A stretch of 43,321 bases of DNA from a virus, in IMG/VR virus record IMGVR_UViG_3300017605_000348, positions 1 through 43,321 of that record. One strand, given 5' to 3'. Position 1 is the first letter of the stretch, and each line of letters starts with the position of its first letter. The notes below the pieces were generated by a model. It did no database searches, was not told the origin of the DNA, and was given only the letters and a program-made list of their open reading frames with translations. Position numbers and translations under genes: made by a program. Shown here piece after piece: positions 755 through 39,890 of this stretch.

Positions 755-1972
755 GTGGCTTTCAAGAGGCTTGAAGACGTCGACGCCAAGCTGGCGGCCA
801 AACAGAAGGCGCTGCACGCGGTCTTCACCGAGGCCGGCAAGGACATGGACCTGTCAGAGGTCAAGTCCGTCAGCGGTGGCAAGGACGCCGTACTGGACTT
901 CATCCGCTCCGCCAACGAAGAGCTGGATGCTCTGGGCAAGGAGCGGGACGAGTGCCTCGTTCTCCAGAAGGGCGCCGACCGCGTCCGCGACCTGGACACC
1001 GACGAGGGCCCCGGCGAGTCGGACCGCGACCTGAAGGGCCACAAGGCTGAGGTCAAGTCACTCGGTGAGCACTTCACCGCGTCGGCCGCCTACAAGGCGC
1101 GTGACCGTCGCGAGACCGCGCACCTGGACATCGAGGTCAAGACCCTGTTCGAGCGGACCACCGGCTGGACGCCGGAGACCAACCGCACCGGGCGTGTCGT
1201 CGACTACGTGACCCGTCCGCTCCAGCTCACGGACGTGGTTCCGGTGGGCAGCACCAACCAGACTTCCGTGGTCTACATGGAAGAGACGACCTTCACCAAC
1301 GCTGCGACTGAGGTCGCCGAGGGTGGAACGTACCCCGAGGGCGCGCTCGGTCTGACCGAGAAGTCCAGCCCGGTCCAGAAGATCTCGGTCTTCATCCCGG
1401 TCACGGACGAGCAGCTCGAGGACCAGGCCGGCGCGGCGTCCTACGTCGACCGTCGCCTGCGCTTCATGGTCGCTCAGCGGTTGGACTCCCAGCTCCTGGT
1501 CGGTAACGGGACCGCGCCGAACCTGCGGGGCATCCTGAACGTCGTCGGCATCCAGACCCAGGCCCGCGGCACCGACCCCGCGTTCGACGCCATCTTCAAG
1601 GCGCTGACCAAGGTTCGCGTCGTGGGTCGTGCGATCCCGGGTGCTGTCGTCCTGCACTCCACGGACTGGCAGAACATCCGCCTCGCGCGGACCGCTGACG
1701 GTATCTACATCCTGGGCAACCCGGACTCCGCCGGCTCGACGACCATCTTCGGTCAGCCGGTCGTGCAGCAGGAAGTTGGCTCCGCAGGCACCGCCCTCGT
1801 CGGTGACTTCCAGAACTACTCGGAGCTCGCCGTCCGGCGGGGAGTCGACGTGCAGGTCTCCAACTCGCACGGCACCTACTTCATCGAGGGCAAGCAGGCC
1901 GTTCGTGCGGACCTGCGCGCCGCCCTTGTCGTCTACCGCCCGACCGCGTTCTGCACCGTCACGGGTCTGTGA
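755..1972 (+). CDS. major capsid protein, HK97 fold
   Basis: A 405-residue HK97-fold capsid protein. Residues 1 to about 110 are charged and helical and look like a scaffolding (delta) domain that the upstream protease would remove. The remainder carries family features: an E-loop and P-domain region with an E-G-x-Y-P-E-G stretch near 189-195, and a conserved G-N-G-T segment with L-R-G-I-L just after it (about 250-260). It starts at GTG with a purine-rich AAGGAAA site upstream. A strong 12-bp hairpin follows the gene, which may tune its expression against the downstream genes. Confidence 0.93.
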   Translation: MAFKRLEDVDAKLAAKQKALHAVFTEAGKDMDLSEVKSVSGGKDAVLDFIRSANEELDALGKERDECLVLQKGADRVRDLDTDEGPGESDRDLKGHKAEVKSLGEHFTASAAYKARDRRETAHLDIEVKTLFERTTGWTPETNRTGRVVDYVTRPLQLTDVVPVGSTNQTSVVYMEETTFTNAATEVAEGGTYPEGALGLTEKSSPVQKISVFIPVTDEQLEDQAGAASYVDRRLRFMVAQRLDSQLLVGNGTAPNLRGILNVVGIQTQARGTDPAFDAIFKALTKVRVVGRAIPGAVVLHSTDWQNIRLARTADGIYILGNPDSAGSTTIFGQPVVQQEVGSAGTALVGDFQNYSELAVRRGVDVQVSNSHGTYFIEGKQAVRADLRAALVVYRPTAFCTVTGL

Positions 1973-1977
1973 TCCTT

Positions 1978-2017
1978 CCGGGCCGGGGTTTGTCACCTGC
2001 CGACGACCCCGGCCCGG
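1978..2017 (+). terminator. GC hairpin after the capsid gene
   Basis: Bases 1978-1989 and 2006-2017 form a perfect 12-bp stem with a 16-base loop, just after the capsid stop codon. No T-run follows, so it is either a U-less actinobacterial terminator or attenuator, or an RNA-stabilising 3' stem. Its position after the most highly needed product suggests it sets capsid dosage (inference). Confidence 0.6.
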
Positions 2018-2040
2018 TCCCACCGTCCTGAGAGGACACC

Positions 2041-2253
2041 ATGGCTATTCTTGAACCCGGGAACGTGCTGCCTGGCTCCGGCCTCGGCACTCCCCTCCGC
2101 AATGGCGGTGCCCCCGTTGTGAACGTCACCTATCTGGGTGTTGCTGTCGTGGGGTCGCAGTACATCGACGCCACCAACGGTAAGGCCTACATCTGTACGG
2201 CCACCAACGGAACGTCCACGATTGTCTGGACCGTCGTGGGGGCGCAGACCTGA
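2041..2253 (+). CDS. small head-region protein, possible decoration protein
   Basis: A 70-residue protein with mostly beta-prone, small-residue sequence and no charged clusters. It starts at ATG after AGAGGAC (2031-2037). It lies between the capsid gene and the connector genes, where small head decoration or stabilising proteins are often coded in actinophages. I see no motif that assigns it to a family, so the decoration role is inferred from position only. Its stop TGA overlaps the next ATG by one base. Confidence 0.6.
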   Translation: MAILEPGNVLPGSGLGTPLRNGGAPVVNVTYLGVAVVGSQYIDATNGKAYICTATNGTSTIVWTVVGAQT

Positions 2254-2447
2254 TGCCTGACGGTAAGCGCCTGTGGCGCACGGAGAGCGGCGAGCTGGTC
2301 GAAGAAGGTCACGCTGACGCTGTCTCTTTGGCGTATGGCATCGACGACTCACTGTCCGCTGAGGATGCCAAGCTCCTCGCCGCGAAGAAGGTTGCTAAGC
2401 CTGCGGCCAACAAGGGTCGGACCTCAAGCGAGACCAAGGGGCACTAA
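2253..2447 (+). CDS. small hypothetical head-region protein
   Basis: A 64-residue basic protein. Its N-terminal part reads like a short phage head protein with a G-K-R-L-W-R-T start, followed by an acidic helix (about 17-45) and a Lys/Ala-rich tail. It is translationally coupled to the preceding gene by a TGATG overlap and followed two bases later by the connector gene. I do not recognise the family. Confidence 0.6.
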   Translation: MPDGKRLWRTESGELVEEGHADAVSLAYGIDDSLSAEDAKLLAAKKVAKPAANKGRTSSETKGH

Positions 2448-2449
2448 GC

Positions 2450-3076
2450 ATGGCTGCCACCCTCGACGTGCTGACTCTGGCCGAAGCTAAGGCCGCGGTG
2501 AAGCTGACTGAATCTAACGCCAGTGACACGGAGATCGCCCGGTGGACTACCGCCGTGTCCCTCCGGCTGGATGAGTTGGTGGGCCCTGTGGTCCGTCGCA
2601 CGGTCACGGATGAGCTCGACGGGGGTGACGCCTGCGTCTACCTGACAACGTACCCAGTTGCCTCAGTCACGTCGGTCACGGAGTACGACTACACCGGCGT
2701 ACCCACGGTGCTGACTCAGGAGACCAACACAGTCAAGCCAACTGCGGGCTACCGCCTACGCAGGTACTCGGCGAATTCAACCCTGTTCGGTAACGAGGTC
2801 GTCCGGCGGGACTCCGGGTGGGTCACCCAGTTCGTCGAGGGCGACAGCAACGTGGTGGTCGCGTACGCGGCTGGCCGGTTCGTGGACACCGCGTCTGTGG
2901 ATGACCGCTTCAAACAGGCCGCCGCCCTGATGCTCAAGAACGTCTGGCGGTCAGAGATCGTCGCGACCCAGGGTATCGGGGAGTACGACGCACCTCAGAG
3001 CAACTTCCCCATGTACGTGATCAGTAAGGCTGTCAAGGACATGTTCCCTGGCGAGCTACAGGGACACTACCTGTGA
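2450..3076 (+). CDS. head-tail connector protein (gp6/gp15-like adaptor)
   Basis: A 208-residue protein resembling phage head-tail adaptors. It has an N-terminal helical region with L-T-L-A-E-A-K beginning near residue 7 and further helices to about 45, then a beta-rich middle and a C-terminal helix with A-A-A-L-M-L-K-N-V-W (about 156-165). These proteins form the ring that docks on the portal and receives the tail. The gene follows the capsid gene, as expected, and overlaps the next gene by four bases (GTGA). The family is assigned from length, helical pattern and position; no catalytic motif is expected. Confidence 0.75.
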   Translation: MAATLDVLTLAEAKAAVKLTESNASDTEIARWTTAVSLRLDELVGPVVRRTVTDELDGGDACVYLTTYPVASVTSVTEYDYTGVPTVLTQETNTVKPTAGYRLRRYSANSTLFGNEVVRRDSGWVTQFVEGDSNVVVAYAAGRFVDTASVDDRFKQAAALMLKNVWRSEIVATQGIGEYDAPQSNFPMYVISKAVKDMFPGELQGHYL

Positions 3077-3519
3077 GCGGGGCGGGGACAAGCCTCGTCG
3101 AGTTCAAGATCGCTCTCTTCGATCTCCTGGCTGCTCGACCGGGACTCGCTAACGTCAAGGTGAAGTATGGCCTCACTGACGGCGAGATGCCCAAAGAGAC
3201 CATCATCCTCGGCCACGCTGAGACGGACAGGCTTGAGATTCCTACTCTCCGCGCTGGGAAGCTTCACCTTCAAGAGGAATACGACCTCAACATCGCGGTG
3301 CAGGTTTGCTTCACGGGCGGTCAGTCTGAGCGACAAGCCGATGTACGCGCAGTGGAGATATTCGCCGAGCTACAACAGCAACTGGCTGAGATGCCTCAGA
3401 TCGTAGACGCCATCCAGTGGGCACGGCCGGAGTCCTGGCGCCAACTGTCGGTGCCTGCTGGTACGGGGCACGCCTCACTATTCGAGATCAAGGTCCGTGT
3501 GCACGCGCGCATGGAATGA
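3073..3519 (+). CDS. tail terminator / tail completion protein
   Basis: A 148-residue protein with the alternating helix-strand pattern of tail terminator (gpU-like) proteins: an N-terminal helix (V-E-F-K-I-A-L-F-D-L-L), a strand-rich middle, a long helix near 90-115 and a final strand. These proteins cap the tail tube and provide the joining surface to the head. It starts at GTG inside the end of the connector gene. Position between connector and major tail protein supports the call; sequence evidence alone is modest. Confidence 0.6.
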   Translation: MSGAGTSLVEFKIALFDLLAARPGLANVKVKYGLTDGEMPKETIILGHAETDRLEIPTLRAGKLHLQEEYDLNIAVQVCFTGGQSERQADVRAVEIFAELQQQLAEMPQIVDAIQWARPESWRQLSVPAGTGHASLFEIKVRVHARME

Positions 3520-3542
3520 CGTTCACATCAAGGAGAAACCAC

Positions 3543-3737
3543 ATGCGCGTTGTATACAACGGACCGTATGACGTGGTCGAGGTGCCTATTCTCGGCATCG
3601 TCGTGCGTCGTGGGGAGCCGATCGAAGTACGTGACGGGGACGCCGAGTTGTTGTTGCAGCAGGACGTCTGGTCCGAAGTCTCTGACGAAGCCGTCTCCGC
3701 GAAGGCCGCCGCGACCAAGAAGGGTGGGGCCGCCTGA
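3543..3737 (+). CDS. small protein before the major tail protein
   Basis: A 64-residue protein starting at ATG 3543, eight bases after a clear AAGGAG site. A GTG about 126 bases upstream in the same frame lies inside the tail terminator gene and is less likely. The N-terminal half is a small beta domain with a V-V-R-R-G-E segment; the C-terminus is Ala/Lys-rich. Its TGA overlaps the ATG of the major tail gene. Such mini-proteins are common at this position, but the role is unknown. Confidence 0.65.
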   Translation: MRVVYNGPYDVVEVPILGIVVRRGEPIEVRDGDAELLLQQDVWSEVSDEAVSAKAAATKKGGAA

Positions 3738-4705
3738 TGGCCGTTTCCGACAAGGCGCAACTTGGTGCCAAGACTGAGACCACTTACGGCACGGCCGTGG
3801 TTGTCGACAAGTTCTTCGATTACGTGTCGGAGTCCGCTGCCTTCGAGCAGACCCGCATCGAGTCGAGTTCGCTCCGCGCGCAGAGCCGGGTCATCACCAC
3901 TGACAACTGGGCCCTGGGCAAGCAGGCCATCGCGGGTGACTTCGACATGGAGCTACGGCCGAAGGGCCACGCGTTCTGGCTGGCGCACGCGATCGGTGCC
4001 GCTGTGTCCACTCAGCCGGACGCCGCTGGCAACCCGACGGTCTACAAGCACACCATCACGCCGGCCGCGCTGCCCCAGAGCTTCACGCTCCAGTTGGCCA
4101 AGCCGGACATCGCTGACGTTGCCACGCCGTTCACCTACGGCGGGTGCCGGATCAGCGAGTGGGAGCTGTCCTGTGGGATCGACGAGTTCGCCCACCTGAA
4201 GTTCGGCTTCCTCGGGCAGACCGAGGCCACGGCCACCGCGCTAGCAGTCGCGTCGTATCCGACAGGCAACAAACCGTATACCTTCGTCCAGGGGACCGTC
4301 ACGATCGCCGGGTCTGCCGCTGACGTCAAGTCGCTGAGCCTCAAGGGTTCCAACAACTTGACCGACGACCGGTACTTCCTGGGCTCGGCGCTGCGCAAGC
4401 GTCCGGAGGAGAACGCCCTCCGTGAGTACACAGGCACGTTCGACAGCGAGTTCTCCGGGCTGACGCAGTACAACCGGTTCGTGTCGGGCGCTGAGGCCGC
4501 GATCGTGCTGCTGTTCCAGGGCGCGACGATCTCCACCACGTACAAGTACGAGTGCAAGGTCACGCTGAACGTTCGCTTCGACGGCGAGACCCCGAAGGTG
4601 GGGGGCCCGGAGATCGTGGGCCAGCCCATCCCGTTCAAGGTCATCAACGACGGCACGACCTCCATCAAGATCGAGTACCAAAGCACTGACATCACCGCCG
4701 CGTGA
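3737..4705 (+). CDS. major tail (tube) protein
   Basis: A 322-residue protein, beta-rich throughout, with regular Gly/Thr/Ser-rich strands and very few Cys, as in siphovirus tail tube subunits. It would polymerise around the tape measure protein. The order capsid, connectors, terminator, tail tube, chaperones, tape measure is canonical and supports the call. The last 80 residues look like a separate immunoglobulin-like or tube-peripheral lobe. It starts at ATG in a TGATG overlap with the preceding gene. It is longer than the smallest tube proteins, which is common in actinophages. Confidence 0.78.
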   Translation: MAVSDKAQLGAKTETTYGTAVVVDKFFDYVSESAAFEQTRIESSSLRAQSRVITTDNWALGKQAIAGDFDMELRPKGHAFWLAHAIGAAVSTQPDAAGNPTVYKHTITPAALPQSFTLQLAKPDIADVATPFTYGGCRISEWELSCGIDEFAHLKFGFLGQTEATATALAVASYPTGNKPYTFVQGTVTIAGSAADVKSLSLKGSNNLTDDRYFLGSALRKRPEENALREYTGTFDSEFSGLTQYNRFVSGAEAAIVLLFQGATISTTYKYECKVTLNVRFDGETPKVGGPEIVGQPIPFKVINDGTTSIKIEYQSTDITAA

Positions 4706-4717
4706 CAGGAGGTCCGC

Positions 4718-5122
4718 ATGTTGGACGTCAGTCAGACTTCGATATCCGACATGCGGGCCCTCCTCCGGGAGATCAAGAAGCTGGAACCAGGAGTACGTAA
4801 GCGGTTGCAGCGCAAGCTACGCGCGTCCGTGAACAAGACCGCGGAGAAGATCCGGGGTCGGCAGCCGAAAGCCACCGGGAACCTTCGCGGCAAGACCCGA
4901 GCTGGAGCTCGAGCCGGTCAGGCGGAGATCAGGGCCAAGGCCGACTACGCCCGCACGATCGAGCGTGGTGGTCGGCACCTGGTGTTCGGGCGTCCGGACT
5001 CCTGGGTGTACCAGCGTCCCCAGCCCGCCATCTTCCCGACAGTTGTCGAAGACCAGCAGCAGTACATCAACGATGCCAACCGCGCGTTCGATGAAGCAGC
5101 GAAGGAGCTCAAGTTCCTATGA
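4718..5122 (+). CDS. HK97 gp10-like minor tail/neck protein
   Basis: A 134-residue protein beginning with a basic helical region (D-M-R-A-L-L-R-E-I-K-K-L near 11-22) and containing Y-A-R-T-I-E-R-G-G near 75-83, followed by an aromatic-rich segment. This pattern fits the HK97 gp10-like family. An AGGAGG sequence lies four bases before ATG. It is unusual that it sits after the tail tube rather than before it, so the family call is moderate. Its stop overlaps the next ATG by four bases. Confidence 0.55.
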   Translation: MLDVSQTSISDMRALLREIKKLEPGVRKRLQRKLRASVNKTAEKIRGRQPKATGNLRGKTRAGARAGQAEIRAKADYARTIERGGRHLVFGRPDSWVYQRPQPAIFPTVVEDQQQYINDANRAFDEAAKELKFL

Positions 5123-5424
5123 CCGAAGCCAAGGCAGGCCGCACCCCCACGAGGCGCGCGACGGCGAAAACCCAGGACCCGTCCATTGTGGTAGCGGACC
5201 TGGAAGACATGACGTGTGGCGAGATCGAGGAGTTCGAGGAGCGCACGGGCAACCCCGTTAACTTCTACACCGCTAAGGGAACTCCCCAGGGCAAGGCGCT
5301 CCGGGTACTCGGCTGGATCTTCAAGCTCCGTGAGGACCCCGAGTTTACCTACGAAGACGCGGCGAACCTGCGTGTCGGGATCAAGCTGTCAGCCCCGGTC
5401 CCTCCTACCGACGAGAGCGCCTGA
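5119..5424 (+). CDS. tail assembly chaperone, short (G) form
   Basis: A 101-residue protein matching the short tail assembly chaperone of long-tailed phages: a disordered basic N-terminus, then an acidic helix (D-L-E-D-M-T-C-G-E-I-E-E-F near 28-40), then a helical core with A-L-R-V-L-G-W-I-F near 60-68. It lies directly before the tape measure gene. It would coat the unassembled tape measure together with the frameshifted long form described separately. Confidence 0.85.
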   Translation: MTEAKAGRTPTRRATAKTQDPSIVVADLEDMTCGEIEEFEERTGNPVNFYTAKGTPQGKALRVLGWIFKLREDPEFTYEDAANLRVGIKLSAPVPPTDESA

Positions 5425-5549
5425 GGATCCAGGTAGCTCTCACTCGGCACTTCGGCCTGTCCCTTGCGGACGTGCGCTCACTCAAGCAGTGGGAAGTCAG
5501 CGAACTGATTGATCAACGCGCCGAGGAACTCCGCGCACGTAAGGAGTGA
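5119..5549 (+). CDS. tail assembly chaperone, long (GT) form by -1 frameshift
   Basis: The -1 frame is open from 5334 to a TGA at 5547-5549. After the stop of the short form it reads R-I-Q-V-A-L-T-R-H-F-G-L, then an acidic/basic helix with K-Q-W-E-V-S-E-L-I-D and a charged end. This has the helical make-up of a T domain and ends exactly at the tape measure start. A -1 slip making a GT fusion is the established mechanism in such phages. I do not see a perfect X-XXY-YYZ heptamer; candidates are the CCCC run at 5337-5340 and CCCTCCT at 5400-5406. The slip position is not resolved. Confidence 0.7.
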
Positions 5550-5551
5550 CC

Positions 5552-8500
5552 GTGGCTGAGAACCGTCGTGACGTCGTCGTCCGTTTCCTTGCCCAGACAG
5601 GCAGTCTGGAGAAGGGCACCGACGTAGCGCAGGGCAAGCTACGGGGAATCTCCTCGAGCCTCCAGGGCATCGCCGCTCTGGGGGCCGTGGTCGCAGGTGT
5701 CAACTTCTTCAAGCACGCCATCGAAGAAGCGGAAGAGGCCGAGCGGGTAACCCGCAAGACCGAAGCTGTCATCAAGTCCACGGGTGGCACCGCGCGCGTC
5801 TCGGCCAACCACATCGGTGCGTTGGCACAGAAGATGAGCACCCTGGCGGGCGTCGACGACGAGGTCATCCAGCAGGGACAGAACGTCCTACTTACCTTCA
5901 CCCAGATCAAAAACGGTGTTGGCAAGGGTGCGGACATCTTCGACCAGGCGTCTCTCGCCGCCCTGAACATGTCGGCCGCGCTGGACCAGTCCGGCGACTC
6001 TGGCGCTGCTTACCAGGACAACGTCATACGCCTAGGCAAGGCCCTCAACGACCCGATCGCTGGGCTCACCGCGCTGAAGAAGGTTGGAGTCCAGTTCACG
6101 GACTCGCAGAAGGACCAGATCAAGACGATGGTCGAGGCCGGCGATGTGGCCGGTGCGCAGAAGGTCATCCTCTCTGAGCTTCAGACCGAGTTCGGTGGGG
6201 CCGCTGAAGCCAATGCCACGGCCAGCGGAAAGGCTTCTGTCGCGTGGGGAAACTTCGCGGAAGCCATCGGCGAGAAGGTCTACCCCGCCGTCACGGCCGT
6301 CGGCAACTGGCTGACTGATGTTGGTATCCCCAAGCTCGGCGAGTTCGCGGACACCGTTGGCGATCAGGTGGGTCCCGTCCTGCACGAGTTGTGGGAGACG
6401 GGCTCTGACCTTGTGGACATGTGGAAGGGACTGTCCGGCCCGATTCAGGCTGGCGTCCTGGCCCTCGGCGCTTGGGCGCTCATTGGGGGCAAGGTCACGG
6501 GCATCTTCGGATCGATGTCGGGCGGAGCCAGGAACTTTGGCTCCGACGTCAAGACCGCCATGGGTGCCTTCGAGGTCAACCGCCTCACCGGTACGTTCAT
6601 GGCTCTCGAAGAGCGCGTTCCGGTGCTAGGCAAGATGGGCGCCGCGTTCCGCGAGAACGCCTCTCAGGGAATTGCGCTGGGGCGGGCCTATGGTGGCCTG
6701 TCCGGAAACATCAGCGCCCTGGGTTCCGCGGCCAAGGGTATCGGCGCCGCGGGCTTCACGGCCATGAAGAGCGCCGCATCTGGCCTGCTTGGCGTCATGG
6801 GCGGCCCGTGGGGTCTGGCCTTCGCCGCAGGTGCGGTACTCGTTGGCACGATGGTATCCAAGATACAGGCTGCCAAGGCCGAGACTGAGAAGTGGAACAA
6901 CGTCGGGCGCGAGAACGTTCGGATCATGAACGATACGGCCGACGCCACTGCTGGTGTAGTCCGTGCGAAGGTCACCCAGAACGCCGCTGACTCAGGCCTG
7001 ATCGACAAGGCCAACGAGCTCGGCGTCTCCACCTATGACCTAGTCGATGCTCTGACGGGCGAAGAAGGTGCACGGGACCGGGTCAACAAGCTACTCGACC
7101 AGGGCGCGGAGAAACACGACCGTGAGTCCAACTTCCTTTCGCAGGGAGCGGACCTGGTGGCGGGTCAGACAGACATCCTGACCAGCCAGGAGGAGCAACG
7201 TAAATCCTTCAACCAGGCGCTCGACGACACGGCAACTGGGTACCAGAGGGAGATTGACGCTCGGCAGGCGGCGTCCGAAGCGTACAACCTGGAACAGGCG
7301 GGCCTGTACGGCGTCGCTGGGTCCCTTGACTACGCGTCCCTGGCGGAGACTAACTGGCGCACCGTCCTCGCGGGGACCGACTACCAGTACGACGAGAACA
7401 AGACCGGCCTTGAGAACCTCACCGCATCGCTCGCCGCGTACAACACTGAGACCGTCTCGGCAATGGACACGGAGGAGGGCTGGTTCGCAAGCCTCGACCA
7501 GCTCAAGCAGGGTGTCAGAGACACGGGCGCATCGCTGGACATTGCCACCGCGGCAGGTCGTGCTAACCGAGACAACCTCGAGGAACTGTCGACCAAGAGC
7601 AAACAGCTCTACATAGACCAGATCAACGCTGGCGTTTCGACGGATGTGGCTACAGCCTCGTACAGCCGGAACATGCAGCAGGTCTACGACACGGCCGCTG
7701 CGCTCGGCTTCAACAAGAGCCAAGCTGACGCCCTGATCAAGATGTACGGCGGCATTCCCTCGTCCATCGCCACGCAGATCACGGCGCCAGGCTACGACGA
7801 TGTAGCGAGCAAGCTGGCGAACCTCTCCGCACAGCAGTACTTCTTGGCTCACCCCAAGAATGACGGGTCGGCGCCGACGGTCGGTGACATCCGGGCCTAC
7901 AACAAACAGGTCCGGGCGGGCATGGCCGATGGTGGCCAGGTCCGCGGGTTCTCCCCGCATAAGCGTGCCGACAACATCGCCGCCAACCTGACCGCTGGTG
8001 AGGTCGTCCAGTCCAACGCGGCTGGCGACTACTACGGCCGGGACTTCCTGGTGGCGCTGAACGAACGACGCGTTCCCAAGGAGATCCTCCCCGGCTACGC
8101 GTCGGGCGGCCTAGTGGCACCGTTCCCTGTGGACGTCAGCCGCACTTCGATCCCAACCCCACCCGCCGTTTCCGTCGGCGCCCCTGCCGGCGGGCCTGCT
8201 GACGGTTCCGCCTTCGCAGGTGGGCCGGGCATCGCGCAGATGCAGCAGTGGGCGCGGGCGCAGGCAGGTAAGAGGTACCTGTGGGGCGCTGTCGGACCGG
8301 GCTCGTACGACTGCTCCGGCCTAGTCGGCAACCTGTATGCGATGGCCAACGGGCTGTCCATGTACCGAAGGTACTTCACCACGGCCGCCATGGGCGTCGG
8401 AAAATTCGGCATGAAGCCCGGACGTGGTCCCGTCACTGTCTACGTGGGACCGGGCCACACCGCCGCGAACATCGGTGGTATGCACGCGGAAGCATACGGA

Positions 8501-33194: not shown

Positions 33195-35993
33195 ATGCCT
33201 GAGGCCAGCCCGTCACCCGTCGACCACGCCATCCGCCTCGTCGTGGCCGGGGCCATCGTGTTCCCCGTCCGCATCGATCTCGACGAGAAGGGCAAGAAGA
33301 GGCCCAGCTACCCCGGATCCTGGGACCAATACCAGATGACCGCGGCCACCGCCGGAGAGATAGCTGCAGCCGGGGCCTATGGGGTTGACTGTGGACGGTC
33401 CGGTGTGGTCGTCGTCGACCTGGACCGCAAGGACAACATCGACGGCGTCAAGCTCTGGCACGGCCGCGGGCTGCCCACGAGCCCGTTCGGTGTTCGGTCG
33501 CGATCGAACGGCGAACACCACTACTTCCGTGCGCCGACCGGCGAGCCTGTGGGCAACGCCTGCTTCAAGACCTTGGGCGTTGACGTGCGGGGGCTGGGCG
33601 GTCATGTCTTCGGTCCGGGGTCGACGGTCGTCGGGGGCGGCGCCTACGCCCTGGAGGGCTCTCTGCCGGCCTCGCTCGCTGACCTACCCGAGTACCCGGC
33701 CGACGTCGTAGAGGCGCTCAGGGCCGAGGACAAGGCCAACAAGAGGGCCAAGGCAGCCGAGCGCCGGCCAGAGGCGTTCTCCCCGGCCCCTGCCGGCTCG
33801 GGCACCGTCGAGCAGTGCGAGCACCGCGTTCGCGAACAACTGGCCATCCTCGAAGAGTCGGTCAACGGAGGCTTCAACGACGAGCTGAACAGGCTGTGCT
33901 TCCTCGTCGGGCAGTACTGCCGGGCCATGAACGACTACGACGGCACCACCTGGGATTACGACGAGGTCCGCAACTACGTAGCCCAGCTCTGTCAGGATTC
34001 CGACGTCATCGGGCCGCTCGACGACACCGACTGGGGAACGATCAACTCCAGCGGGGCTCAGTCCGGACTCGACTCCCCCTACAACCCCGGAGGGCCGACT
34101 GAGGCCGAGCTGTCCTGGTCGGACATGATCCAGGTCGAGGCGCCCGCCCCGGCTCCGACAGCTGACCCTCTGCTAGGTATGCCCACGTTCTCCGATGACC
34201 TGGTCCACACGGCGATGGACGACCTACACGCCGCACGTGTGGCGCGCAACCCGCTGTGGGGGGCGCTGCTGCCCAAGGGGTCCCTGCGTGGCGAGCTACC
34301 CCCCGTCCCCGAGTACGTCCTAGATGGACTACTGCGGCGGGGTGAACTCGCGGCCCTGGTCTCCGAGGCCAAGGCGGGGAAGTCCCTGCTCGCGCTGGAC
34401 CTCGTCGTGAGGGCCACCCGGGCGGGTCTCCGCATCCTGTACGCCGACGCGGAGAACGGCTACTACGACATCCGGACTCGGATCGACCAGCTCGGATGTG
34501 ACGACGAGACCGCGGCCAAGATCGAGGAGTCGTACCTGAGCTTCCCCAGCGTCGTCCTGGACACCCCGGAGGGTACACACCAGTTCCTGACCTTCGTAGC
34601 GGACTACGCCCAGGAGATAGGCATGGTGGACGCGGTCGTACTCGACACGGCCAGTCGGTACATATCAGGAATCGAGAACGACTCCAGCCCCTGGCTGGCC
34701 ATGTATCGACTCACCCTCCAGCCGCTCAAGCGCAAGGGTATAGCGGTGCTCCGGCTGGACCACATGGGCAAGGACGTGACGAAGGGTGCCCGGGGTAACA
34801 GTGCCAAGTCGGGAGACGTCGACACGATCTGGGAGCTCAAGGCGGGCGACCCGCCCCCAGGCAGGCTCACTCCCGTCCGGGTCGAACTGACTTGTGCCAT
34901 GCAGCGCTCAGGCAGTCACGCTCGGTACACGGTGCTATCCCGGACCACAGAGGACGGGGTGCTGGTTCACCGTGCTGAGGGGTCACTGGGCGATGGGGTC
35001 ATGCCGACGATGGCCCCGCCCCGGGTGTCCCCGGTAGACGATGTGGTGGCCGTGCTGGACCGCTCGGGGTGCCCTAACCACACCGGCCGACCAGCCGCCC
35101 AGGACTGGCTCCGGGACCGCGGGGTGCCCCTCCCGAAGGCGGGCACGACCGAGTGGGCCGCCGCCATCCGGGAGCGCAAATCGAGGCCCGAACAAGATCC
35201 AGTAGTGGCCCTCGAACAAGATCCAGATGGTGCCGTTTCGGGCACTGACGAGCTGTCCTGGGAGCTGTCCCAGAGATCAACAAAAACCAAGATCAGGACA
35301 GCTGTTCCGGACAGCTCAGGACAGCTCCAGGACAGCCAGGACAGTTTGCCTGTTTGTGCTGGTCAGGCTGTCCCGGGCGCTGTTCCCATGATCGACTGTC
35401 CTGAGGCCACAGGCGCCGTTGTCCCCGCCCTGGGGCTGTCTATAGGACAGCCCAGGCGGGACAGCCTCGAAGATGATCAAGGAAACAGTGCCCCTGCTGG
35501 AAACGAAACCGAGGGGGGTTCGGCGCCTCCCACCAAGATCAAGAAGAGGAGGCTCACAGACGAGGAGAAGGCCGAGCGGAAGCTGGCTCAGACCGAGGCC
35601 CGCCGAGTGGCGTCCGAGGAGAAGCGTCTCGCCGCGGTGGAGGAGGCCAACGGTCCGGCCATCCAGCTACCCGCTCTGGTCGACCGACCCTCCGGCAACG
35701 TGCGGGCGGTGACCCTGGCTGAGGCGGCCTCCCTCATCACTCACGCGGTCACGCGGTCCGGCGCCATGACGGTCGACGTCGAGCACAACGGGTGGCCAGT
35801 CGGTCACCGTGCCCACGTGCTGCGGACCATCCAGCTCGGCGACGCCATTCAGGCGGTCGTGCTCGATGGCACTAACCCGGAGCACCGCGCGGTCGCCCGG
35901 GACGCGTTCGACGCAGCACCCAAGCTGCATGCCCACTCGGCGACAGCCGACCTCGTCCCACTGGCACACGCTGGAGTACTCGATGCGTCTTGA
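33195..35993 (+). CDS. prim-pol primase / RecA-like helicase with split exonuclease tail
   Basis: A 932-residue replication protein. Residues 1-185 form a bifunctional primase-polymerase domain: D-L-D at 75-77, H-H at 108-109 and Asp130 in D-V-R-G are the metal and nucleotide sites. Residues 365-590 are a RecA-like ATPase with A-K-A-G-K-S-L (Lys396) and V-D-A-V-V-L-D. A disordered Gln/Ser-rich linker follows (about 660-770), and then a basic helix. The last ~90 residues hold exonuclease motif I (D-V-E) and a motif-II-like H-S-A-T-A-D-L-V-P-L, but stop before motif III, which opens the next gene. AGGAGG precedes ATG by about ten bases. Confidence 0.88.
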   Translation: MPEASPSPVDHAIRLVVAGAIVFPVRIDLDEKGKKRPSYPGSWDQYQMTAATAGEIAAAGAYGVDCGRSGVVVVDLDRKDNIDGVKLWHGRGLPTSPFGVRSRSNGEHHYFRAPTGEPVGNACFKTLGVDVRGLGGHVFGPGSTVVGGGAYALEGSLPASLADLPEYPADVVEALRAEDKANKRAKAAERRPEAFSPAPAGSGTVEQCEHRVREQLAILEESVNGGFNDELNRLCFLVGQYCRAMNDYDGTTWDYDEVRNYVAQLCQDSDVIGPLDDTDWGTINSSGAQSGLDSPYNPGGPTEAELSWSDMIQVEAPAPAPTADPLLGMPTFSDDLVHTAMDDLHAARVARNPLWGALLPKGSLRGELPPVPEYVLDGLLRRGELAALVSEAKAGKSLLALDLVVRATRAGLRILYADAENGYYDIRTRIDQLGCDDETAAKIEESYLSFPSVVLDTPEGTHQFLTFVADYAQEIGMVDAVVLDTASRYISGIENDSSPWLAMYRLTLQPLKRKGIAVLRLDHMGKDVTKGARGNSAKSGDVDTIWELKAGDPPPGRLTPVRVELTCAMQRSGSHARYTVLSRTTEDGVLVHRAEGSLGDGVMPTMAPPRVSPVDDVVAVLDRSGCPNHTGRPAAQDWLRDRGVPLPKAGTTEWAAAIRERKSRPEQDPVVALEQDPDGAVSGTDELSWELSQRSTKTKIRTAVPDSSGQLQDSQDSLPVCAGQAVPGAVPMIDCPEATGAVVPALGLSIGQPRRDSLEDDQGNSAPAGNETEGGSAPPTKIKKRRLTDEEKAERKLAQTEARRVASEEKRLAAVEEANGPAIQLPALVDRPSGNVRAVTLAEAASLITHAVTRSGAMTVDVEHNGWPVGHRAHVLRTIQLGDAIQAVVLDGTNPEHRAVARDAFDAAPKLHAHSATADLVPLAHAGVLDAS
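35189..35464. repeat. iteron-like repeats in the linker of the primase gene
   Basis: GGACAG or its complement CTGTCC occurs eleven times: GGACAG at 35296, 35309, 35319, 35330, 35339, 35445 and 35459; CTGTCC at 35253, 35265, 35368 and 35396. Five lie 9-13 bp apart, near one helical turn. Just before them the 14-mer CGAACAAGATCCAG is repeated at 35189 and 35213. The stretch is also less GC-rich. It codes only the flexible linker, so the DNA itself may be selected, for example as origin iterons. Confidence 0.6.
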
Positions 35994-37458
35994 CGAAGCC
36001 TGGGAGCGGATGTACGACACCGTGATCCCATCCAAGTTGGCTGACCCGCAGTCAACGGGTAGTGACCCCGGTCTCAAGGCCCTGTCTGGCACGTTGCTCG
36101 GTGAGCTGTCCGTGGCGCCGGCAGCCGACGCGGCCCGCAAGACCCTGTTCCGGGCGGGCCGCTGGAACGAGGACAACGGCTGGGGCCACGTGAGCTACGG
36201 CCACGAGACGATGGTCCGCTACGCCGCGAGCGATGTCCTGGACACCGCGGCACTAGCCCTGGCCCTCCCCTGGCCGGAGCCGGCGCTGCTCGAACGGGAG
36301 CGGCTGGCCCAGCGGATGACCGCCCGGGTGACCAGCCGGGGACTGCTGCTCGACGGACCACACATCGAGGAGTTGCTCGCCAAGCACACCGCGGCCCAGC
36401 GTGAGGCACACACCCGGGTCTGCGCGTTCGGCATCGAGAACCCCGGCTCGGCCCAGCAGGTAGGCAACCGGCTCCGTGAGCTAGGGGCCGCCCTACCGGA
36501 GACCGCGACTGGCAAGCCCTCGGTGGCCTCGGACGTCCTCAAGGAGCTCCGGGCCACCGGGGACGCAGGTGTGCTCTCCGCCGCGGTGCTCGACTATCGC
36601 CACCACGCCAAGGCGGTGAGCGCGTTCCTAGAGCCCTACCTGGAGCTGGTGCGGGAGGGCGACGGGCGGGTCCGGCCCACGGTCTACACGCTGGCCGCCG
36701 ACACCGGGCGGATGTCCTCGGTGCGACCCAACCTGCAACAGGTACCCAAGGTGGGAGGCTTTCGAGCCTGCATCCGGGCCGACCAGGGCTACCGCGGAGT
36801 GGCGGCTGACTTCTCCGGCGTCGAGCTGCGGGTGTTCGCCGCGGTCTCGGGCTGCACCGAGATGGCCCGATACCTCGCTGAGGAGGACGCAGCACCACCC
36901 GGGACCAAGGCCGGACTGCACTGGGCCATCGCCCACGAGGTGTGGGGTCCTGAGGCCACCTACGCCGACCGGGGCAAGGCCAAGAACGGGGTGTTCGCCA
37001 CCTTCTACGGCGCGGCCCCACCGAAGATCGCCAAGACCCTCGGCATCCCCGAGGCCCAGGCCGCCGCCATCCAGGAGATGCTCCGGGCATTGGCTCCGGG
37101 CGCTGCCCAGTGGGCCGAGGGCATCAAGCAGCAGGTCAGGCGCGGAATGAAGCAGTACCGCAGCTACGCGGGCCGGATCATCCACCTGGACGACAGGGAG
37201 CCCCACAAGGCACCGAACTACATCATCCAGGGCTCCGCTCGCGAGTTGCTCGTGGACGCCCTGGTGGCGCTCGCGGACACCCGCTGGGGCACCTGCACCC
37301 TCCTGCCCATCCACGACGAGCTGATCCTCTTTGTCCCCGAGGACGAGGCCGACGAGGCATCCGCCGAGCTGGTTCGGTGCATGGAGACCGAAATGAACGG
37401 CATACCGATCAAGGTCGAGGCGGACCCGCCTTGGATCTCCTGGCCGGACCCGGACTGA
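35983..37458 (+). CDS. polA: DNA polymerase I-like family A polymerase
   Basis: A 491-residue polymerase starting at ATG 35983, overlapping the primase gene by 11 bp in the +1 frame. Residues 1-90 finish an exonuclease domain with motif III Y-A-A-S-D-V-L-D. The polymerase has motif A D-F-S-G-V-E-L-R (Asp276; G replaces the usual Q), motif B R-G-K-A-K-N-G-V-F-A-T-F-Y-G, and motif C I-H-D-E-L (His444, Asp445, Glu446). It copies the phage genome. The exonuclease is complete only if both gene products join, either as partners or by a frameshift. Confidence 0.9.
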   Translation: MRLDEAWERMYDTVIPSKLADPQSTGSDPGLKALSGTLLGELSVAPAADAARKTLFRAGRWNEDNGWGHVSYGHETMVRYAASDVLDTAALALALPWPEPALLERERLAQRMTARVTSRGLLLDGPHIEELLAKHTAAQREAHTRVCAFGIENPGSAQQVGNRLRELGAALPETATGKPSVASDVLKELRATGDAGVLSAAVLDYRHHAKAVSAFLEPYLELVREGDGRVRPTVYTLAADTGRMSSVRPNLQQVPKVGGFRACIRADQGYRGVAADFSGVELRVFAAVSGCTEMARYLAEEDAAPPGTKAGLHWAIAHEVWGPEATYADRGKAKNGVFATFYGAAPPKIAKTLGIPEAQAAAIQEMLRALAPGAAQWAEGIKQQVRRGMKQYRSYAGRIIHLDDREPHKAPNYIIQGSARELLVDALVALADTRWGTCTLLPIHDELILFVPEDEADEASAELVRCMETEMNGIPIKVEADPPWISWPDPD

Positions 37459-38494: not shown

Positions 38495-38739
38495 TGTCAC
38501 TAGCTGACGCACTGAGTACCCCACCATCCCGCCAGCGTGTATCGCGGTGTCGCCTGGGTCAGATCCTCGACTCCGTGCCTACGGCGGACGCTGACGCCCT
38601 CACGGCGGCGCTGCTTGACGAGCGCTTCACCACCGCGGCCATCCATTTGGCACTCCACACCGAGGGACACGCTCTAGCTAGATCAACTGTGTCGGCACAC
38701 AGGAGGGAGGTGTGTTCATGTCACTCTCTGACAGCCTGA
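38494..38739 (+). CDS. small HTH-like DNA-binding protein
   Basis: An 81-residue protein beginning with M-S-L-A-D-A-L. Residues 24-75 resemble a helix-turn-helix: A-D-A-L-T-A-A-L-L-D then F-T-T-A-A-I-H-L-A-L and S-T-V-S-A-H-R-R. Such proteins precede packaging genes in several actinophages and may regulate late genes. GTG start overlaps arm 3 of the leader hairpin. The 3' end overlaps the phosphoesterase gene by 22 bases. Interestingly, both proteins start with similar residues (M-S-L-A-D / M-S-L-S-D). Confidence 0.7.
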   Translation: MSLADALSTPPSRQRVSRCRLGQILDSVPTADADALTAALLDERFTTAAIHLALHTEGHALARSTVSAHRREVCSCHSLTA

Positions 38740-39890
38740 GCACGCCATCTACGCCTGACGCCCGCCGGACCCGTGCTGAGCACCCCGCCACGACCTATGA
38801 GGCCGGCGAGCTGGTGACGGCCGCCATTCCTCTTCGGCGCGTGCCGGAGGAGGCCAAGTGGCGCGAGGAGATCGCCCGGGTGACCGGTGTTGAGGTCCCC
38901 GACCACCGCGAGGTCATCCTTGAGGGTGTCCGCTACTGGGGTAACCCTGACGACCTGAACGTTTACTGCCGCTTCAAGATCCAAGACCGCCCCGGCTCAC
39001 CGTCCGATGTGGACGCGGTCAGGCTGCTGAAAGACCTGCGTGAGGGCAGGCAGCGCTCCAAGGCGATCCACACGGGAGAGACAACCCTGGTGGTGTCCTG
39101 GAACGACTGGCAGACCGGCAAGGCAGCCGGGGGAGGCACCGCCGCTCTAGCTGAGCGACTGGACGGTGCCTACGACGGGGTGACCCAGCGAGCGCGTGAG
39201 CTGAGAAAGATCGGCCGCGACCTGGGTCACCTCGTCATCATTGGGGGCGGGGACATGGTCGAGGGCTGCTCGATCTTCCCAAATCAGGCCTACGAGATCG
39301 ACGGCGACCGACGCACCCAGGTACGCAACACGACGGCCTTCATCCTCGAGGGCATCGATCGGCTAGCTCCGCAGTTCACCAAGGTCACCTTGCTGGTGGT
39401 CGGAGGCAACCACGGTGAGAACCGCATCAATGGCAAACGGACTACGCGCGGCGACAACGACGACTGTGCGGTCTTCGAGCACGCAGCGTTAGCCGTGGCC
39501 CGGGACAAGCGACTGTCGCACGTGGACTTCGTGATCGCCGAGGATGAGCCAGCCAAGACTCTCGACGTACACGGCCACATCCTAGCCACCACGCACGGTC
39601 ATGCTTTCGGCCGCAACGTCTCAGGTGGACCGGAGCCCAAGGCTCTCCGCTGGTACTCCGGCCAAGCAGCCGGACACCAGCCCGCGGGCGACGCGCACGT
39701 CCTGGTCAGCCACCATTTCCACCACCATGCCTCCCGTGATTGGGGTGCGTGCCAGTGGGTGCAGACCCCAGCCATGGACGGTGGCTCGCCCTTCTTCACT
39801 GACTACAGTGGGCAGTCCGCCAAGCCCGGCATGTTGACCTTCGTGATGACACCCGAGCACCGATACGTGGATGCGCAGGTACTGGGATGA
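38718..39890 (+). CDS. calcineurin-like metallophosphoesterase
   Basis: A 390-residue phosphoesterase. Metal-site segments are W-N-D-W-Q-T-G-K (near 130), G-G-G-D-M-V-E-G (near 178), G-G-N-H-G-E-N (near 235), and T-H-G-H-A-F-G plus S-H-H-F-H-H-H in the last third. These fit the dimetal calcineurin fold; the substrate is unknown and could be nucleic acid or a cyclic nucleotide. Residues 1-120 form an extra N-terminal domain. ATG 38718 follows AGGAGGGAGG; a GTG six bases earlier is in frame. Confidence 0.85.
   Translation: MSLSDSLSTPSTPDARRTRAEHPATTYEAGELVTAAIPLRRVPEEAKWREEIARVTGVEVPDHREVILEGVRYWGNPDDLNVYCRFKIQDRPGSPSDVDAVRLLKDLREGRQRSKAIHTGETTLVVSWNDWQTGKAAGGGTAALAERLDGAYDGVTQRARELRKIGRDLGHLVIIGGGDMVEGCSIFPNQAYEIDGDRRTQVRNTTAFILEGIDRLAPQFTKVTLLVVGGNHGENRINGKRTTRGDNDDCAVFEHAALAVARDKRLSHVDFVIAEDEPAKTLDVHGHILATTHGHAFGRNVSGGPEPKALRWYSGQAAGHQPAGDAHVLVSHHFHHHASRDWGACQWVQTPAMDGGSPFFTDYSGQSAKPGMLTFVMTPEHRYVDAQVLG

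Follow-up and report, generated by a model that had tools for sequence, protein, structure and literature searches.

A 3′–5′ exonuclease domain divided between a primase-helicase gene and a family A DNA polymerase gene in a virus related to actinobacterial phages

Two overlapping ORFs and the exonuclease motifs

We analysed a 43,321-nt stretch of DNA from an uncultivated actinobacterial phage (IMG/VR record IMGVR_UViG_3300017605_000348, positions 1 to 43,321), hereafter called the window. As listed in Table 1, two ORFs, for chain A and chain B, lie head-to-tail on the plus strand, and the frame of chain B is +1 to that of chain A. An earlier note on this DNA, made without database searches, had described an 11-bp overlap of the two genes in different frames, and this was confirmed (33195–35993 vs. 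35983–37458); the stop codon of chain A occupies 35991–35993 and chain B starts at ATG 35983. Pfam searches identified Prim-Pol (residues 15–166) and AAA_25 (residues 368–527) in chain A and DNA_pol_A (residues 137–480) in chain B. We also looked for an independent complete exonuclease in either protein, which the earlier note had counted against its own reading, and detected no such domain in chain A or chain B with Pfam or the PHROG profile. The gene at 38712–39890, downstream of the polymerase, matches phrog_284 (annotated exonuclease, E 4e-51); it was considered as the polymerase's own exonuclease and rejected, as it lies outside the polymerase.

Table 1. Features of the primase-helicase/polymerase locus in the window
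Feature	Position	Strand	Description
Chain A ORF	33195..35993	+	932 aa; primase (Prim-Pol), helicase (AAA_25, RecA/KaiC-like) and linker, then the exonuclease half with motifs I and II
Helicase–exonuclease linker	35220..35480	+	nine GGACAGC/GCTGTCC copies in 214 bp; border between two mosaic blocks
3′–5′ exonuclease fold, first half	35661..35990	+	placed by alignments and structure model
Candidate restart signal	35973..35985	+	GGAG 35973–35976, 6-nt spacer, ATG 35983–35985
ORF overlap	35983..35993	+	11 nt, closing with the TGA stop of chain A
Chain B ORF	35983..37458	+	491 aa; second half of exonuclease (motif III), family A DNA polymerase

Alignment with 11 actinophage PolA proteins placed motif I (VDVEHNG, catalytic D 35775 and E 35781) and motif II (SATAD, catalytic D 35949) in chain A and motif III (YAASD, Y 36220 and D 36232) in chain B. 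The DnaQ/Pol I-type DEDDy catalytic set (DxE, D, YxxxD) is complete, but it is spread over two ORFs, which bears out the initial proposal that motifs I and II close the primase-helicase ORF and that motif III belongs to the PolA ORF. The second part of that proposal, homology spanning the junction, stands as well. Similarity to the 11 actinophage proteins is unbroken across the junction, and on joining the frames the PHROG 17 polymerase match reached back from profile position 753 to 700, while its score rose from 283 to 299 bits (a gain of about 15 bits). The joined 598-aa segment gave a predicted model with pLDDT 94.4 and pTM 0.90 that matches phage and bacterial Pol I structures along its full length. 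The model places the break at residue 109/110, where a loop gives way to helix 110–116, right after the motif II helix. Such a loop position is compatible with assembly of the predicted fold from two chains.

The fused gene in relatives and the mosaic structure of the locus

Our in-group set comprised 77 distinct loci, 73 of which span the junction. The earlier note had advised checking whether relatives have one continuous gene. Results of the comparison showed that the exonuclease-polymerase part is open in one frame in all 73 distinct spanning loci, with no frame change at the junction in any of them. In 57 of the 73 the same ORF also contains more than 600 codons of upstream primase-helicase, mostly Prim-Pol with a D5/DUF5906 helicase, for a total of about 1,440–2,000 codons. 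The closest relative overall, the IMG/VR sequence L014, has one 1,423-codon ORF with Prim-Pol, AAA_25, exonuclease and polymerase. Chain A is 72% identical to its counterpart in L014 and chain B is 71% identical to that in L015, in which the corresponding region runs on unbroken from the upstream half. Since isolate bacterial genomes hold the fused gene as continuous ORFs of 1,568–1,728 codons, we could exclude that it is a product of assembly.

By its exonuclease-polymerase sequence the window belongs to this family of fused primase-helicase-exonuclease-PolA genes of actinobacterial phages and prophages; its domains are not all in one ORF, as the frame is broken at 35983–35993. A tree built from the exonuclease-polymerase part joins the window to L015 as its sister and then to L014 (SH-aLRT 99 each), with branch lengths of 0.39 for the window vs. 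0.18 for L015. The window is nested within the fused clade, from which it follows that the split is derived. Judged on the sequences compared, the break is both derived and unique to the window among its relatives, and the ancestral form was probably one polypeptide running from primase-helicase through exonuclease to PolA. A single-protein search with chain B retrieved no close relatives, but the alignment query did find them. An exact 27-mer search of the viral collection returned no sequence near-identical to the window. In the phage collection, two tblastn exonuclease-polymerase queries gave no match above about 31% identity among the best 15 of 1,119 and the best 12 of 652 records, and every phage PolA gene inspected was separate from the primase.

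The locus itself is mosaic. Chain A is L014-like up to about 35600, and its linker is 85–98% identical to that of L014 per 100 nt, vs. mostly 50–70% in the flanks, while the exonuclease-polymerase part is closer to L015 (71%) than to L014 (53%). Prim-Pol with AAA_25 is found in the window and L014, and D5-type helicases in most other relatives. N-terminal modules thus appear, from these comparisons, to have been swapped onto a conserved exonuclease-polymerase. The repeat copies of the linker (window 35252–35465, L014 7181–7393) lie in coding sequence and are both direct and inverted. In L014 this repeat linker is almost the same (identity up to 98% per 100 nt), most flanking stretches being 50–70% identical; it may act as an origin-like element or bind protein, or it may mark a site where modules were joined by recombination.

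The family showed further variation. In L023 (1121–6506) PolA is unfused, and the upstream ORFs resemble a DnaB-type helicase and a DnaG-type primase, as if replacing the fused primase-helicase. The N-terminal region of the fused ORF in L018 (2031–6485) is unlike the other modules by blastp and may be another primase/helicase type. Long in-frame insertions, intein-like in appearance, were seen in the fused gene of L022 (in the helicase, with a LAGLIDADG match) and of L050, L052, L168 and L169 (in the polymerase). In L171, about 390 nt with a frame change (about 6846–7239) interrupt the polymerase domain; they have no Rfam match and may represent an unrecognised intron or split.

The junction and the explanations of the break

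In the relatives, 29–31 residues lead from the histidine of motif II to the conserved aspartate-threonine that follows it. With the frames joined, the window has 31, like L015, from which it differs at the junction by a net shift of one base. No homopolymer is present at the site. The ATG with GGAG 6 nt upstream is located exactly at the break; GGAG is a moderate Shine-Dalgarno (SD) motif, and the start region has little structure (folding is equally good or better in 194 of 200 shuffles). With ATG 35983 close to TGA 35991 and GGAG 35973 inside the upstream gene, the two ORFs have the arrangement of a translationally coupled pair. To estimate how often such a signal arises by chance, we simulated 11,489 random frame breaks in 56 family members, scoring as signal a start codon with a 4-nt SD match. 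An ATG with such a match, like the GGAG at spacing 6 in the window, arose no more than 15 nt from the new stop in 1.2% of breaks; the fraction was 2.8% when the zone for the ATG was widened to −60..+30, and some restart signal was present in 12.9% when any of three start codons was allowed in that zone. Synonymous randomisation of the local peptide gave a restart signal in 2.6% of cases, and none was found in 1,345 in-frame 42-nt stretches of the two genes.

Several other origins of the junction were rejected. An upstream GTG start for chain B (35809) would encode a peptide without similarity to relatives. In-frame readthrough of the TGA ends after 16 residues and cannot join the chains, so only a +1 or −2 shift could fuse them. 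There was no Rfam match to an intron or structured RNA in the window, L171, L049, L014 or L015, and any extra sequence at the junction amounts to a few bases at most. Neither a homing-endonuclease gene nor an intein is inserted at the junction, though intein-like insertions occur in relatives.

One of the two readings offered by the earlier note was a frameshift producing a fused protein of about 1,420 residues; the programmed +1 (or −2) shift would occur at TCT-TGA-C, perhaps yielding two short forms besides the fusion. The predicted size agrees well with the single 1,423-codon ORF of L014, the stop context is GCG-TCT-TGA-C as described, and the frame-joined product aligns and models well over the junction. 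TGA-C is moreover a weak stop context that the E. coli prfB site shares, along with an SD-like motif upstream. The shift itself fared poorly. All 73 relatives spanning the junction fuse these parts by plain in-frame translation, and a programmed shift is therefore no family trait; a derived break that is found in the window only, and in 0 of 73 relatives, argues against programmed frameshifting. The prfB site has CTT in the P site and its SD 6 nt from the stop, in contrast to TCT and 14 nt in the window, a spacing that suits initiation instead, and the window break lacks conservation. Re-pairing from UCU to CUU would involve a first-position mismatch and two wobble pairs, in line with the earlier expectation that it would be poor, and the remaining codons of the zone are no better. 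Three features expected of a prfB-type site, P-site re-pairing at +1, an SD about 6 nt from the stop and a conserved break, were looked for and not found. Strong downstream structure is also missing (z −1.63). According to PMC12421855, none of 2,658 Actinomycetota genomes has the prfB frameshift motif, and its efficiency in M. smegmatis is only about 6%. A prfB-like +1 shift at FRAMESHIFTING is unlikely, and we regard programmed frameshifting of any such kind as highly improbable. The other early reading, two chains sharing one active site, fits better, given the ATG with GGAG at the break and the loop position in the model, and is retained here as an inferred state.

More serious competition comes from explanations in which the break has no function. 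The contig may carry a wrong base count at the junction and the phage an intact fused gene. Relatives are all continuous there, the joined junction has the length seen in L015 and within the family range, and the window is only a net one-base shift away from the unbroken state; when the frame of a conserved domain is broken in a single sequence, the cause is more often an error or an indel mutation (PMC3711429). Yet the site has no homopolymer, and among collinear genes shared with L014 and L015 no other was judged frame-broken. In that comparison of record ORFs the replicase gene was the only interruption attributed to a frame break; the remaining multi-frame flags were ascribed, by judgement, to repeats, paralogues or out-of-frame ORFs. 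It would also be necessary for an error to hit next to an ATG that is in the right frame and has an SD at a suitable distance, as happened in 1.2–2.8% of simulated breaks, and we consider it unlikely. A real but recent damaging frameshift mutation, with the polymerase made from the internal ATG and either exonuclease loss and weak proofreading or a defective genome as the outcome, would accord with a split confined to one sequence and with the window branch being longer than that of L015. On the other hand, the catalytic positions are all retained, and the exonuclease half has diverged from L015 no faster than the polymerase, although a very recent split would look alike. The restart signal goes beyond what chance would be expected to give and constitutes the main argument against both error and damage; the damaging mutation, too, we hold to be rather doubtful.

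With about an even chance of being right, we favour a real, derived, lineage-specific gene fission, in which chain B is made by reinitiation or direct initiation and the exonuclease is reassembled from the two chains. A small net insertion just past the motif II helix would have shifted the remainder of the gene into the +1 frame. The ribosome would then terminate chain A at TGA 35991, and chain B would start at the overlapping ATG 35983 with its own SD, by termination-reinitiation or directly. Chains A and B would associate through the split exonuclease fold, restoring the proofreading site, and this association would keep the helicase-primase and the polymerase together without a covalent link. 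Against the fission count its dependence on a single contig, the window, to which no sequence of the viral collection is near-identical, and the 12.9% of simulated breaks that show some restart signal under the widest criteria. The fission builds on the split, the derived state, the restart signal and the kept catalytic residues, all read from the sequence, and on the loop position taken from the predicted model; it presumes that the contig is correct, that translation of chain B begins at 35983, that the two chains bind each other and that their exonuclease is active. A stricter version, in which the exonuclease is an obligate joint, half on the primase-helicase and half on the polymerase, with proofreading only when both are docked, is put forward tentatively and is itself not likely.

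A more distant relative, L049 (a 210-kb contig), has ORFs at 1656–5327 and 5341–6606, split at the border of exonuclease and polymerase. Here a TGA is followed by GGAG, 7 nt and ATG, the ATG lying 13 nt downstream. This is apparently an independent fission of the same fused gene and suggests that the gene can come apart.

Comparison with known replicases and implications

Primase/helicase-exonuclease-PolA polyproteins are represented by the Pol of Pyrovirus OS3173 (TOSV) and the apicoplast PREX; pyroviruses differ among themselves in having the helicase either fused or as a separate ORF (PMC7689252, PMC6523293). Like the window's family, they have a primase/helicase region, a 3′–5′ exonuclease and a family A polymerase on a single polypeptide. 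The junctions in these polyproteins fall between domains, with PREX being processed by protease, whereas the window is broken inside the exonuclease. The modules of the actinophage family are Prim-Pol with AAA_25 or Prim-Pol with D5/DUF5906, and the likeness to Pyrovirus is one of architecture, with no kinship implied. Cultured actinophages encode the primase/helicase separately from PolA, which holds a whole exonuclease of its own. The PolA proteins of Liebe, GardenState, Quenya, Heather and Samy are homologous exonuclease-polymerases, about 30% identical, whose genes adjoin a primase/helicase gene as in the window; unlike in the window, the genes are separate and each PolA has a complete exonuclease.

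Splitting of phage polymerases is already known, and the window is a variant of it. In the T4-related phages 25 and 44RR gp43 is split (43A/43B), and the chains of phage 25 co-purify and are active (PMC2988022). This too is a phage replicative polymerase gene in two chains, but it belongs to family B, is split by a homing endonuclease gene or intercistronic sequence, and consists of genes without overlap and without an attached primase-helicase. OM43 phages of the MEP401 type have PolA split in two ORFs, conserved among relatives (PMC10580990). Here a family A phage polymerase is in two ORFs, as in the window, yet the split lies within the polymerase domain around a small ORF and leaves the exonuclease whole in the first ORF. 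A limited search of the open-access literature found no report of a polymerase whose exonuclease is cut in two, with one half carried by a primase-helicase.

Across actinobacterial phages and prophages, the relatives form a broad clade whose replicases are single chains of about 1,440–2,000 codons. If real, the break in the window would be a case of an all-in-one replicase coming apart at an unexpected place, and a natural case of a proofreading active site split over two chains of a phage replisome, the helicase-primase and the polymerase. The unbroken genes of L014 and L015 provide a direct comparison for the role of covalent linkage in proofreading and fork coupling.
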